DNA of 40,113 nt from Eubacteriales bacterium (GTDB taxonomy: Bacteria; Bacillota; Clostridia; Monoglobales; Firm-18): contig JAQVDK010000009.1 of NCBI GenBank assembly GCA_028697835.1, forward strand, positions 1 through 40,113. The letters run 5' to 3'. The position numbers were made by a program, and so were the translations under genes. Under the pieces are notes generated by a model, which was given only the letters and a program-made list of their open reading frames with translations, made no database searches and was not told the origin of the DNA. Of this stretch, positions 6,699 to 10,885 are shown piece after piece. The stretch's first letter is position 1, and each line of letters begins with the position of its first letter.

Positions 6699-6713
6699 AG
6701 TTAACTTGATAAA

Positions 6714-6818
6714 GATTTCCCTACGTTGGCATTATCCAAATCAGGTTCTTGCAATTTTTTAGATTGCAAAGGGTCTCAGATTCTAATCTGACTCTCAGCC
6801 CGGCACACGGGCTCCCCT
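6714..6818 (-). ncRNA. TPP riboswitch (THI element)
   Basis: Minus-strand sequence shows the THI-box landmarks in order: GGGGAGCCC, GGGCTGAGAG, GACCCTTTGCA, GAACCTGATTTGGATAATGCC and GTAGGGAAA. The closing P1 stem can form from GATT and AATC. Binding of thiamine pyrophosphate would lower expression of cytX-thiM-thiE-HAD-thiD. The variable P3 arm (AGATTAGAATCT) is short. Confidence 0.96.
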
Positions 6819-6842
6819 AATCCCGATATTAAATTTTTCTAA

Positions 6843-6874: not shown

Positions 6875-8263
6875 TTAAAAATAAAGGTCTCTGTCACCTT
6901 GCAAAATTTTATCAACCTGCTTTTTCAAAGCTTCTTTAATTTTTTCGTCCTCGAGCTGGTCGATGCTTTTTTGTATATATTCCATGCCTTCCGCCTTAAG
7001 ATTGTCCGTTCCGTAGTCGCAGATATATTCCAAAAGCGTCATGATGGCATTTGGCTGGCAAACATTTTTAATTTCGCCGGAGCGTGCAAGCTCGAAAAAC
7101 CTGTCGCCGGTCCTGCCCATGCGATAACATGCGGTGCAATAGCTGGGAATAAACCCGTCTCGCATAAGTTCTAAAATAACATCGCCTACTTTTCGGTTGT
7201 CCGAAACTTCAAACTGCAGGTTTTCTTTAAGGTTTTCCTCCTCGTCTTTATAGGCGCCAACACCCGTTGCAGAGCCGGCGCTAATCTGGGAAATTCCATA
7301 GTTTATGGCTTCTTTTCTAAACTCTGCGGTTTCCCTTGTGGATAAAATCATGCCCGTGTATGGAACGGAAATTCTGATTATGGCAATTACTTTTTTAAAC
7401 TCCTCGTCGTTTAAAAGATAAGGAAAGCCTTTTAAGGAGTTGTTGCCCATGGCGGGCTTTAGGCGAGGCACCGATATGGTGTGGAAACCTGCGCCATAGG
7501 TTTTTTCCAAATGCTCGTTGTGAATCATAAGGCTTAAAACCTCGTATTTATAGTCATAAAGCCCAAACAAAACCCCTGCACCCACATCGTCAATGCCCCC
7601 TTGCATTGCCCTGTCAAAAGCGGTAAGGTGGTATTCATAGTCGCCTTTAATGCAATTAGGGTGCATTTTCTCGTAGGTTTCCCTGTGGTAGGTTTCTTGG
7701 AACAAAATATATGTCCCAATTCCCTTTTCCTTTAGTTTTCGATAGTTCTCAACCGAAGTTGCTGCAATGTTTATATTAACCCGTCGAATTTCGCCGTTTT
7801 TTTGCTTTGTGCTGTAAACCGCGTCAATGGCGTCTAAAATATATTCAATGGGGCAGTTTTCGTAGTCCTCGCCAAATTCAAGGGCAAGCCTTTTATGCCC
7901 CCTGTTTTCCAATATTTCAACTTCCTTTTGTATCTCCTCTATGGAAAGCTTTCGGCGCTTGAATTTATTGCTGCATTTATACCCGCAGTAAACACAGTTG
8001 TTTACGCAATAGTCGGAAATGTAAAGGGGTGCGAAGATAACAACCCTGTTGCCGTATATTTCGTTTTTAATCTTGCCTGCCAGTTTGAAAATACGGCTTA
8101 GCTTTTCCTCATCGTCAATATTTAAAAGAATTGCAATGTCCATGTGGGACAGCTTTTCTCTGTTTTCAGCCTTTGCCAAAACCGCCTCTTTGTCGCTGTC
8201 AGTTGCGTTTTCGGCTTCTGTTAGGATGTTTTTTATATATTTGTCATTAATAATCAATTTCAT
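6875..8263 (-). CDS. hydG: [FeFe]-hydrogenase maturase HydG (radical SAM tyrosine lyase)
   Basis: HydG (462 aa) cleaves tyrosine with SAM to make the CO and CN ligands of the hydrogenase H-cluster. The radical-SAM motif is CVNNCVYC (C86-x3-C90-x2-C93). The C-terminus has CTAC with a third Cys 22 residues later (about C376, C379, C402), the CX2CX22C motif that binds HydG's second cluster. The related ThiH lacks this arrangement and is shorter. Its ATG abuts the hydF stop with no gap. The product acts with HydF and with HydE, which is not in the window. An adjacent thiamine operon could tempt one to call it ThiH, but the C-terminal cluster motif and the HydF neighbour decide for HydG. Confidence 0.95.
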   Translation of the reverse strand: MKLIINDKYIKNILTEAENATDSDKEAVLAKAENREKLSHMDIAILLNIDDEEKLSRIFKLAGKIKNEIYGNRVVIFAPLYISDYCVNNCVYCGYKCSNKFKRRKLSIEEIQKEVEILENRGHKRLALEFGEDYENCPIEYILDAIDAVYSTKQKNGEIRRVNINIAATSVENYRKLKEKGIGTYILFQETYHRETYEKMHPNCIKGDYEYHLTAFDRAMQGGIDDVGAGVLFGLYDYKYEVLSLMIHNEHLEKTYGAGFHTISVPRLKPAMGNNSLKGFPYLLNDEEFKKVIAIIRISVPYTGMILSTRETAEFRKEAINYGISQISAGSATGVGAYKDEEENLKENLQFEVSDNRKVGDVILELMRDGFIPSYCTACYRMGRTGDRFFELARSGEIKNVCQPNAIMTLLEYICDYGTDNLKAEGMEYIQKSIDQLEDEKIKEALKKQVDKILQGDRDLYF

Positions 8264-9484
8264 CTACTCCAATCCGTTATTATTTAAAAGCGGTTTTGTG
8301 GCCCGATTTAGTATGCCTGTCAAATACGCCAGCAAAATCCCATAGTTTACAATGGGAACGTTTGTATCTACAGCCAGTTTCAAGCGGTGCATCATCTCTT
8401 TGCGATTTAGCATGCAGGCGCCGCAGTGTATTACAAGCTTGTATCCGGACAAATCTTTTTTATATCCAAAGCCCGAGGTATGTTCGAAAACAAGCTGTTT
8501 TCCCGTATGTTTTTTTAGCATGGCGGGGATTTTAACCCGTCCTATGTCATCGCATTGAGCATGGTGGGTGCAGGCTTCCGCAACAAGGATTTTGTCGCCG
8601 TCCTGCAAGGCTTCAACAGCCTTCACACCTTCCATAAGCTTATCCAAATCCCCTTTAAAACGGGCAAACAGAATGGAAAAGGAGGTAAGGGGAATACTAT
8701 CCGGTAAAACCCTTGACACCTTTGCAAAAACCTGGGAGTCGGTTATTGCCAAAGACGGTTTGTTTTTAAGCATTGACAAGGTCTTTTCGATTTCATCCTC
8801 TTGAATCACCATGCATATTGCATGTTTGTCCAAAACCTCGCGTATTACCTGCTGCTGCGGCAAAATCAAGCGTCCCTTGGGGGCGGAGGAGTCAATAGGG
8901 GCAATGAGTAAAACCAAGTCATCTTTGCCGATTAGCCCTTGCAGGATGGTTTTGTCATCGCCTGTGGGTGCGGCTTTTGAAAGCAGAAGCTTAAGTTCCC
9001 GGATACCCTCGCCTGTTTTTGCACTGACCATGCAAGCTGGTATTTTAGTTGCTTTTGTAAAATCTTCAACATCTTCTTTGGTTATACCGTGAAGGTCGGC
9101 TTTGTTTAAAGCTGCTGCCAAAGGTATTTTCTTTTCCCTGATTTTTTGTATGATTTTTTCTTCGGTATCGTCCAAGGGCAGGCAGCCATCTTTTACAAAA
9201 ATGGCTATGTCGGTTTTGTTTAGCACTTCATAGGTTTTTTCAATGCGAAGCTTGCCTAAATCACTATCATCGTCCAAACCGGCCGTGTCAATGATAACAC
9301 AGGGGCCTATGGGCAAAATTTCCATGCTTTTAAAAACAGGGTCCGTGGTTGTGCCTAAAACTTCGGACACAATGGCGATTTCCTGCCCCACAAGGGCGTT
9401 TATAAGGCTTGATTTTCCCGCGTTGCGCTTTCCGAAAAAGGCAATATGCACCCGGCTTGACCTTGGGGTTTGGTTTAAGCTCAT
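8264..9484 (-). CDS. hydF: [FeFe]-hydrogenase maturation GTPase HydF
   Basis: HydF (406 aa) is the GTPase scaffold that assembles the 2Fe subcluster and hands it to apo-hydrogenase. GTPase motifs are G1 GKRNAGKS (18-25), switch region GTTTDPV, DTAGLDD, and NKAD. The C-terminal iron-sulfur motif is CTH in EACTHH followed about 50 residues later by HCGAC, matching the HydF pattern CxH...HCxxC. Start: the ATG at 9484 has AGGAGA eight bases upstream. The frame also offers an ATG three codons earlier at 9493, but that sits too close to the ribosome binding site. It lies between the TM1266-like gene and hydG on the same strand. Confidence 0.95.
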   Translation of the reverse strand: MSLNQTPRSSRVHIAFFGKRNAGKSSLINALVGQEIAIVSEVLGTTTDPVFKSMEILPIGPCVIIDTAGLDDDSDLGKLRIEKTYEVLNKTDIAIFVKDGCLPLDDTEEKIIQKIREKKIPLAAALNKADLHGITKEDVEDFTKATKIPACMVSAKTGEGIRELKLLLSKAAPTGDDKTILQGLIGKDDLVLLIAPIDSSAPKGRLILPQQQVIREVLDKHAICMVIQEDEIEKTLSMLKNKPSLAITDSQVFAKVSRVLPDSIPLTSFSILFARFKGDLDKLMEGVKAVEALQDGDKILVAEACTHHAQCDDIGRVKIPAMLKKHTGKQLVFEHTSGFGYKKDLSGYKLVIHCGACMLNRKEMMHRLKLAVDTNVPIVNYGILLAYLTGILNRATKPLLNNNGLE

Positions 9485-9502
9485 ACAATACATCTCCTAA
9501 AT

Positions 9503-9763
9503 TTAATCGATTTTCACACCTGCTTTTGAAACAGAGGTTTTTACCGTTACATTCTTTATGTTTCCCAGCTTGCCTGTTAAGTGGTTTATCTCGTCCAGCT
9601 CGCCGATAACGGTAATTGCAATCGCCGAAAGATTAGCCTCGGGAATGGGTATTCCCATCCTGCCTTTGATAATTCCTTTAAACTGCGATACAACCAAGTT
9701 AAATTGGTGCTGACACTCCTGGGGGTTTTCCAAAATTGCACTTACAACCGCCACACGTTTCAT
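9503..9763 (-). CDS. TM1266-type iron-only hydrogenase system regulator
   Basis: Small protein (86 aa) of the TM1266 family, which is often encoded next to [FeFe]-hydrogenase maturation genes and is usually annotated as a putative regulator. It begins MKRVAVVSAILENP and contains SQFKGIIKGRMGIPIPEANLSAIAITVIG, split here as a conserved RMGIPIPE core. The predicted fold is ACT/ferredoxin-like, as in the NikR ligand domain. No DNA-binding segment is visible, so direct DNA binding is doubtful. It starts with AAAGAAGGTG upstream of the ATG and leads hydF by 18 bases. The structured leader with a terminator lies just upstream of it. Confidence 0.88.
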   Translation of the reverse strand: MKRVAVVSAILENPQECQHQFNLVVSQFKGIIKGRMGIPIPEANLSAIAITVIGELDEINHLTGKLGNIKNVTVKTSVSKAGVKID

Positions 9764-9789
9764 GGCACACCTTCTTTCATACTAAATAT

Positions 9790-9818
9790 AAAAAAGCCTT
9801 CCCAATCGAAAGGAAGGC
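9790..9818 (-). terminator. Intrinsic terminator in the leader of the hyd operon
   Basis: On the minus strand, GCCTTCC, a 9-base loop and GGAAGGC are followed by six T. This is a clean rho-independent terminator placed about 27 bases before the start of the TM1266-like gene. It either ends an independent small RNA or acts as an attenuator for the hyd genes. Confidence 0.8.
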
Positions 9819-9999
9819 GCAAATAGACAAGGCAAAAAGCCTAAGTAACAAATATGCACTCACCGCCTTTCAGATTAGTTTGAACTTTTCTGTCAGGTAT
9901 GACTTTTTATTATAAAAAGCTGTATCCAAGGCAAATATCCGTCTTTGCCTGTAGCCGCACACAGAGCATACAAGAAGGCTTTGCAACTTGTATGCTCTG
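9819..9999 (-). ncRNA. Candidate structured leader or small RNA upstream of the hyd genes
   Basis: A 180-base non-coding stretch between the lipoprotein gene and the terminator. It holds a 13-bp perfect hairpin CAGAGCATACAAG (9962-9974 with 9987-9999), a GGCAAA/TTTGCC stem (9930-9935 with 9944-9949), a CTTTTTAT/ATAAAAAG hairpin containing TATAAT (9909-9914), and GGC-rich sequence before the terminator. The 13-bp hairpin begins 13 bases after the lipoprotein stop and may belong to that gene's 3' end. I could not match the stretch to a riboswitch class I know (TPP, FMN, SAM-I, cobalamin, glycine, c-di-GMP-I, T-box). No strong -35 pairs with the TATAAT. Confidence 0.4.
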
Positions 10000-10012
10000 A
10001 AACTTTTGCGAC

Positions 10013-10885
10013 TTAGCTTTCTTTGTTTTTTTCTCTTTCCACCTCATCCATTACCTCTTGCAGGTCCGAGCTTTGGGTGGAAGTTACAACCTGCTTTTCA
10101 CCTTCCATGCCAAAGGTGATGTTTTCCTGGGTGGTGTATTTGGCGCCGGTGGAATCTGTATAAACATAGTAGATTACAGCCGAATTTTCGCCTTTTTCTA
10201 TTGTATAGTCAACAACCCATGGGCTTGACGTGCCGATGGACCATACAACCTCACCGTCAACGGTTTCAAGGGTTTTAATAAAATCCTCCCTCACATCCTC
10301 ACTCATAATTGCATAGCGTAGCTTGCCGTCTCTTGATTGGCGTGCAGATGCCCAAATCTCCGCCAAATAGCTTTGATATTTTTCGGTATCAAGCTTTAGC
10401 TTAACGGATTTTATTACCTCCAGCTGGTCGGCCTGGGCAGTCTTTTCAGAATCGAAATAAATGTCTATTAAAATATTATGCTCGCTTACAGGGAACAGGT
10501 AATGCTCAAAAACCCTTTGGTCAGTATTCTCGTTAGAGTCAGGAGATGATTGCCTTAGCACTACCTTATAAACCAAATAATTAAATTCCGTCAATACTTC
10601 TTGCGATATTATTTCGCCTTGCTCCTTGGCATGAGAAAATTCCAAGCCGCCATCTTCGTTTTTTCTTGGATATGTCTTAACGCTTAGTCCGCCTACATAC
10701 TCAGATTTTTCATTATAAATTTTATCGCCGTCTTTGCTGCTCCAGCCTTGGGGAAGGGAATAGCTGTACCAGTTTTCTTTCTTTTCGTTTATGTTAACAC
10801 GGCATGCCGAAAGCAGTCCTATAGAAAAAATCAGCAATAAAATTAATGAAAAATATGAAAAAAGCGTTTTTGTATTACTATTCAT
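10013..10885 (-). CDS. Predicted lipoprotein of unknown function
   Basis: Exported lipoprotein (290 aa). The signal peptide ends in lipobox LLSAC, with Cys28 as the lipid anchor. The mature part appears to have two regions. Residues about 38-165 (WYSYSLPQGWSSKDGDKIYN onwards, ending LEVIKSVKL) look like a PsbP/DUF1795-style beta domain. Residues about 170-275 have an NTF2-like look with SSPWVVDYTIEKGE and repeated short strands. The tail is charged (EVMDEVEREKNKES). I do not recognise a named family. It has its own promoter and AGGAG nine bases before the ATG. Its neighbours (folC upstream, hyd genes downstream) do not suggest a function. A sensor, an envelope-stress or an antibiotic-response role would be speculation. 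Confidence 0.8.
   Translation of the reverse strand: MNSNTKTLFSYFSLILLLIFSIGLLSACRVNINEKKENWYSYSLPQGWSSKDGDKIYNEKSEYVGGLSVKTYPRKNEDGGLEFSHAKEQGEIISQEVLTEFNYLVYKVVLRQSSPDSNENTDQRVFEHYLFPVSEHNILIDIYFDSEKTAQADQLEVIKSVKLKLDTEKYQSYLAEIWASARQSRDGKLRYAIMSEDVREDFIKTLETVDGEVVWSIGTSSPWVVDYTIEKGENSAVIYYVYTDSTGAKYTTQENITFGMEGEKQVVTSTQSSDLQEVMDEVEREKNKES

Follow-up and report, generated by a model that had tools for sequence, protein, structure and literature searches.

The window analysed here is a stretch of 40,113 nucleotides from an Eubacteriales bacterium (GenBank assembly GCA_028697835.1, contig JAQVDK010000009.1, positions 1 to 40,113), and the genes of interest lie on its minus strand. Read from right to left, the transcript order is a lipoprotein-like ORF (10013-10885), approximately 250 non-coding bases, a TM1266-like gene (9503..9763), hydF (8264..9493) and hydG (6875..8263). 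The TM1266-like protein matches PF21699 with 79.8 bits, has PDB entry 2nzc as a sequence relative, and belongs to a family described in Pfam as a putative hydrogenase-system regulator. The hydF product carries the HydF tetramerization and dimerization domains, and the hydG product carries Radical SAM and BATS domains and is 40-66% identical to its counterparts in relatives. Their spacing suggests that TM1266, hydF and hydG form a single operon, of which TM1266 would be the first gene. Directly 3' of hydG, a TPP riboswitch (6701-6828, minus strand; 54.9 bits versus a gathering cutoff of 54.3) precedes a transporter-like ORF and an ORF that resembles thiM by eye.

The initial annotation described a structured, non-coding leader of about 210 bases before TM1266. 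The region is indeed non-coding and folds well (z = -4.97 for a 225-nt leader, whose fold beats all 200 dinucleotide shuffles), but the conserved element comprises only positions 9902-9788, or about 115 bases. Outside the conserved core, a strong 13-bp inverted repeat that is not followed by a U run occupies positions 9962-9999, right after the lipoprotein-like gene.

The leader begins with a core hairpin (9861..9902, minus strand) supported by matches to two covariance models described below (49.8 bits with R1 and 45.7 bits with R2), by pair counts and by its predicted fold. Its basal helix P0 pairs 9897-9895 with 9868-9866 and is followed by a GA/AA internal loop; P3a then pairs 9892-9889 with 9874-9871 and is followed by an AA/AA internal loop, and P3b pairs 9886-9884 with 9879-9877. 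The 3' strand of the hairpin is overlapped by a putative antiterminator strand, GAAAGGCGG (9863..9871, minus strand), which lines up with the hydG Shine-Dalgarno region of relatives. Downstream lies an intrinsic terminator (9788..9818, minus strand) with an 8-bp GC-rich stem, a 7-nt loop and a U-rich tail, in which the stem-loop spans 9818-9796 and TTTTTTAT extends to 9788. Positions 9813-9808, comprising part of the terminator 5' arm and loop, are the predicted partner of the antiterminator strand. As the initial annotation stated, 27 bases separate 9790 from the ATG at 9763. A pattern scan finds 7 terminator-like sites in 5.5 kb versus 7.3 expected, such that this terminator on its own is not above chance; it is convincing because of the comparison with relatives rather than because of the scan.

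Directly upstream of the core is a candidate -10 box (TATAAT, 9909..9914, minus strand). This box, proposed from its letters and lacking a good -35 box, would set the start of the transcript at approximately 9902, and a like placement is seen by eye in two members (L152 and L201). It is absent from the output of the promoter scan of the window.

The initial annotation could not match the fold to a riboswitch class, in agreement with searches of Rfam 15. Only the TPP riboswitch reaches the gathering cutoff in the window, and no gathering-level match is present at the leader in either the window or the loci of 22 relatives (2, 11 and 9). The top weak match in the window, RT-16 RNA (RF03019), reaches 20 bits over 9840-10000 versus a gathering cutoff of 50 (E 1.8), and the ribosomal protein L10 leader (RF00557) reaches 17.6 bits over 9780-9915 versus 44 (E 2); the leader was judged to be a member of neither class. 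A search for direct DNA similarity to the leader in eight genomes of the same family gave nothing convincing (best non-own E 0.147). Matches at query positions 143-162 were rejected, as they correspond to the start region of an mraZ-like gene (G001) and to a coding stretch (G003), and an exact 16-mer of this stretch is found in one of 51 genomes of the order, the window's own.

Relatives of the leader were collected by way of the downstream genes. With the HydF protein as query against genome contigs, one distant match was obtained (28% identity, residues 17-172). In the order, three of 30 HydF loci (those of the window genome, G002 and G003) have TM1266 within the fetched flanks, and the leaders of these three genomes share ACCTGMCRRAAAAG, the hairpin and then CTRATYTGRAAGG. 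TM1266 matches were found in 234 of 391 genomes of the class, and the motif was located, partly by eye, upstream of 16 of the top 30 matches, a set that includes the window itself. The seed was a MAFFT alignment of seventeen sequences that lie upstream of TM1266 genes, with G002 and G003 contributing two; L075 was left out as nearly identical to L072.

The resulting covariance model, R1, yields 59 matches (58 non-own) in 51 of the 391 class genomes at E <= 0.05, with the caveat that E-values from R1 and from the refined model R2 are rough and that the fast filters used lose matches. All 42 matches at E <= 1e-3 were kept, and 41 of these precede TM1266, hydG, hydE, hydF, ABC transporter genes or a nitrogenase-like operon; the remaining one, L129, ends with its contig. 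Fifteen of the 42 are seed sequences. The 27 that lie outside the training set precede TM1266 or hyd genes (20), an ABC transporter (5) or a nitrogenase-like operon (1), or are unreadable at a contig end (1). Among the 17 weaker matches, 7 were kept and 10 (L155, L157, L162, L163, L164, L166, L168, L169, L170 and L171; each E > 1e-3) were judged false because they fall within coding frames or are not near related genes. Model R2 finds matches in 15 of 398 genomes of the phylum and 6 of 51 genomes of the order, and all 17 of its new matches, in 16 genomes not used for model building, precede TM1266, hydE or hydG. These match rates indicate that a minority of genomes carry the element, although absence by R2 is not reliable because one of its searches missed a known member genome (G112). 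The final set of 68 members comprises 49 R1 matches (the window's own included), the leaders of G002 and G003, and the 17 R2 matches; several copies occur in some genomes (three each in G117 and G071).

The conserved hairpin of approximately 32 nt has the form YCU-RA-4 bp-RA-AGA-loop-UCU-RA-4 bp-RA-AGR, with two purine-rich 2x2 internal loops. Its strands read YCU-RA-N4-RA-AGA and UCU-RA-N4-RA-AGR, and the stem is therefore pseudo-twofold symmetric. In the MAFFT alignment of 17 sequences, which does not lean toward the structure of any model, the 7-pair hairpin has 95.0% of its cells paired versus 77.1% after shuffling, and a covariation score of 0.610 versus 0.235. Alignments made with a model do lean toward the structure of that model. 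A 51-row model alignment adds the basal helix, in which YCU pairs with AGR. Across 10 pairs, this alignment has 71 cells in which both sides have changed versus 19.9 after shuffling, and a covariation score of 0.465 versus 0.204, neither of which is reached by any of 500 shuffles. In its 7-pair version, the number of pairs with a change on both sides is reached by 36 of 500 shuffles. The outer basal pair is C-G in 27 rows, U-A in 8, U-G in 5 and A-U in 2, and is unpaired in 7.

Similar results were obtained with the 17 held-out matches, which have 25 cells changed on both sides versus 8.4 after shuffling and a covariation score of 0.406 versus 0.160 (0 of 500 shuffles for each). Two of the five measures are not beyond shuffles in this set, namely the number of pairs with a change on both sides (65 of 500) and the number of further pair types (310 of 500), and 7 of the 15 rows with letters there lack the outer P0 pair. 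These findings establish a conserved, covarying 5' leader structure of the kind expected of a riboswitch.

A second conserved hairpin, UUCAAAY..YUUGAGAGnnnUCUUGAR..RUUUGUU, was noticed by eye approximately 20-70 nt before the core in 19 leaders (L114-L120, L122, L026, L130, L136, L137, L139, L159, L160, L191, L196, L199 and L200). Its 14 pairs include 53 cells changed on both sides versus 19.8 after shuffling. This hairpin was not recognised in the window.

An intrinsic terminator lies downstream of the hairpin and outside coding sequence in 37 of the 68 members. Two further members, L146 and L153, were left out of this set because the site found lies inside hydG or hydF, and the terminators of L025, L121 and L141, seen by eye only, are likewise outside the 37. 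The strand 3' of the hairpin pairs better with the 5' arm of its own terminator (mean -15.5 kcal/mol) than with swapped arms (-11.1 kcal/mol), and none of 10,000 permutations is as good, although part of this difference could come from shared base composition or relatedness. In L115, for example, CCGAAAGGGAAUUAGG pairs with CCUAACUUCCGUUUCGG. The own duplex is weaker than the swapped mean in 4 of the 37 members (L124, L139, L142 and L165), and is not below z = -2 relative to letter shuffles in 8 of the 37. One member, L193 (G777), has two copies of the element in one gene cluster, before TM1266 and before hydG, each with a terminator-like site.

The corresponding duplex in the window has a predicted energy of -16.1 kcal/mol (z -2.3 versus letter-shuffled strands). 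For the complete leader, the core plus terminator fold (-32.2 kcal/mol) is 1.7 kcal/mol better than the antiterminator fold (-30.5 kcal/mol). Before the 3' arm of the terminator is made, the antiterminator fold (-23.4 kcal/mol) is instead 1.6 kcal/mol better than the core fold (-21.8 kcal/mol). The alternative folds are thus nearly balanced, and modest stabilisation of the hairpin would favour termination.

In 25 other members, a start codon is located 3-13 nt after the core (hydG in 22, hydF in 2 and a substrate-binding protein in 1). For L147, L194, L204 and L205, the spacing of 7-9 nt was determined by eye, because the script gave no codon or one located upstream. This placement makes AAAGAAAGGA, AAAGGTGGA or a similar run the Shine-Dalgarno region; L153 has a separate AGGAGG after the core. 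Neither arrangement was recognised in L129, L148 or L167. Since the 3' strand of the hairpin either pairs with a terminator or constitutes the Shine-Dalgarno region, one hairpin appears to serve two expression platforms, transcription attenuation and translation block. By computation, therefore, the platform is formed as an alternative to the conserved structure, as in riboswitches.

The next gene could be read in 67 of the 68 members and is TM1266, hydG, hydE or hydF in 60. The script counted TM1266 in 26, hydG in 26, hydE in 6, hydF in 2, an ABC transporter in 6, a nitrogenase-like gene in 1 and no readable gene in 1 (L129), some of its queries being proteins of L124, L137, L139 and L142 themselves. 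The HydE proteins of L137 and L159 and the HydG protein of L160 are backed by NCBIfam equivalogs, and the other identities rest on similarity to these three proteins and to those of the window. Upstream genes vary while the element keeps the same downstream genes.

Among the transporter-associated members, L141 and L142 have SsuA-family substrate-binding proteins above the subfamily cutoff, with a transporter permease as the first gene. The substrate-binding proteins of L124, L148, L152 and L156 fall below the SsuA-subfamily cutoff and match NMT1/Phosphonate-bd; those of L140, L148, L152 and L156 are 49-72% identical to the L124 protein. In L159, hydE is followed by an ABC permease, an ATPase and an SsuA-like protein, and in L115 and L120 the protein after TM1266 is just above the cutoff as an ECF transporter S-component. 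The L139 leader (G117), which has both the second hairpin and a terminator, precedes a nitrogenase-like operon whose genes encode a NifH-like protein scoring under the nifH cutoff, two proteins resembling nitrogenase component 1 and a Peripla_BP_2 protein. Sequences resembling TTGTTAANNNNTTAACAA, the operator of clostridial Rex (an NADH-responsive repressor), were seen by eye in promoter regions upstream of the core in L061, L074, L137, L147, L159, L196 and L200. Such operons may be under redox control at the DNA level, with the hairpin RNA as a second layer.

We propose that the element belongs to a class of cis-regulatory leader RNAs that was not found in Rfam, and that it controls H-cluster maturation genes; we hold this with considerable confidence. 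The initial annotation had suggested an attenuator linked to H-cluster assembly, an interpretation supported by the covarying stem, its recurrence before those genes and the coevolving antiterminator. It had also stated that a lack of stem conservation among relatives, or a promoter between the terminator and TM1266, would count against its proposal; the covariance search of relatives' leaders shows a stem conserved with covariation, and the promoter scan lists no promoter in that interval. The underlying observation of a terminated leader is confirmed.

Other explanations of the element were evaluated against the same data. The element might be the ordinary 3' terminator of an upstream operon, or the stand-alone small RNA that the initial annotation had offered as another option; in favour of these readings, terminator-like sites occur at chance rate in pattern scans. 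Both are very unlikely, given that downstream genes are constant while upstream genes differ, that the antiterminator coevolves with its terminator and that the core stops 3-13 nt short of a start codon in 25 members, the last point also speaking against the small RNA in particular. A leader-peptide attenuator, in which translation of a 28-codon ORF from GTG 9863 to TGA 9777 (VSAYLLLRLFALSICAFLSIGKAFLYLV; minus strand) controls the overlapped terminator, is highly improbable. This ORF is hydrophobic, remains open through the terminator and is preceded by the Shine-Dalgarno-like AAAGGCGG, which resembles the start region of a relative's mraZ-like gene. However, an ORF from the same place extends past the terminator in only 10 of the 37 members (window included), and the sequences look unrelated, such that no conserved peptide emerges and this reading was rejected. 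Moreover, in 25 members a start codon, usually that of hydG, comes shortly after this strand. Least probable of all is a DNA operator for a repressor. The element is an inverted repeat near promoter-like sequences in several members, but conservation keeps the purines of both internal loops non-complementary, some pairs are G-U, the flank on the 3' side coevolves with a terminator arm, and members are found beside start codons inside gene clusters.

The leader RNA that we favour would operate as follows. The hairpin runs directly into a GAAAGGAAGG-type strand, the first part of which closes the hairpin, and a formed and stabilised hairpin would hide this strand. No antiterminator could then form in terminator-bearing leaders, where transcription would stop, and in leaders close to a start codon the Shine-Dalgarno region would be covered. 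If the hairpin is not stabilised, the strand would be available to the 5' arm of the terminator, permitting read-through, or to the ribosome. Sequence comparison supports the predicted hairpin and its covariation, the coevolution of the antiterminator, the use of two platforms and the gene associations. Pairing logic suggests that the stabilised hairpin corresponds to the OFF state, and the stabilising signal presumably reflects the assembly of the H-cluster or the supply of its building blocks.

Two versions of the leader-RNA model differ in how this signal would be sensed. The hairpin might bind a small molecule or ion directly and so represent a new riboswitch class, with candidates including an H-cluster building block, a by-product, or a nutrient that the associated transporters import; we give this version a little short of an even chance. 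One compact hairpin is used on both transcriptional and translational platforms, G117 and G071 each carry three copies, and the neighbours include NMT1-type ABC transporters and, next to TM1266, an ECF-type S-component, the transporters favouring a metabolite signal. Such a mix is familiar from metabolite-sensing RNAs. Against this version, the core is only about 32 nt and no pocket was identified.

Alternatively, the hairpin could be bound by a dimeric RNA-binding regulator; the most attractive candidate is TM1266, which would then autoregulate its own operon. We regard this version as a tentative possibility. Per-position agreement between the half-sites of the stem is 0.57, whereas shifted comparisons give 0.43 at most, PF21699 is described as a putative hydrogenase-system regulator, and a TM1266 gene adjoins the element in 26 of the 68 members. 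TM1266 matches are present in 42 of 43 class genomes with a kept motif versus 192 of 348 others (Fisher p 2e-9), an association biased by seeding the model with 17 sequences upstream of TM1266 and uncorrected for the possession of hyd genes at all; they are also present in 15 of 16 further motif genomes. This co-occurrence and the symmetry of the stem make TM1266, whose fold we take to be ACT-like, a candidate RNA-binding partner. In contrast, two motif genomes (G237 and G681; 93 and 94% complete) have no PF21699 match, and six TM1266 proteins were near neutral by count (10-12 K+R versus 7-11 D+E). Direct sensing seems somewhat likelier than sensing mediated by a protein.

RAT antiterminators recognised by BglG/LicT-type proteins are imperfect hairpins with two internal loops that suit a dimeric protein and compete with a terminator. 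The hairpin described here likewise has two internal loops, but it opposes the antiterminator whereas the RAT hairpin is the antiterminator, and its gene context is hydrogenase maturation. As in riboswitches with interchangeable platforms, a conserved structure is followed by an alternative antiterminator and terminator or by a covered Shine-Dalgarno region, and the associated genes are for biosynthesis and transport; the element differs in its very small core and in matching no Rfam 15 class in the searches made. The biochemistry of [FeFe]-hydrogenase maturation has itself been dissected.

Passages of PMC5651825 and PMC9481103 mention Moco and tungsten-cofactor (Wco) riboswitches preceding genes for hydrogenase complexes. 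Like these, the element is an RNA before hydrogenase-related genes, but it has no match to those classes and precedes H-cluster maturation genes rather than hydrogenase complexes. An RNA before [FeFe]-hydrogenase maturation genes was not found in the titles and abstracts of the open papers covered; supplements and most subscription journals may describe the class. Nor is one described in passages of PMC11109978, PMC8632094, PMC6429828, PMC9481103, PMC10418091, PMC6239172, PMC5651825, PMC5640608 and PMC3543383.

We consider it more likely than not that the element is the first RNA known to sense assembly of the [FeFe]-hydrogenase cofactor, in which a compact pseudo-symmetric hairpin reads a signal related to the H-cluster, whether by direct binding, which would make it a new riboswitch class, or via TM1266 as a previously unrecognised RNA-binding regulator, and shuts maturase and transporter genes by two platforms. 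The element names a regulon composed of TM1266, hydE, hydF, hydG, NMT1-type ABC transporters, an ECF-type S-component and a nitrogenase-like operon. The signal shared by these genes should reveal what cells keep track of as they build the H-cluster. It also gives the TM1266 family a possible job, and could serve as a reporter of H-cluster assembly.
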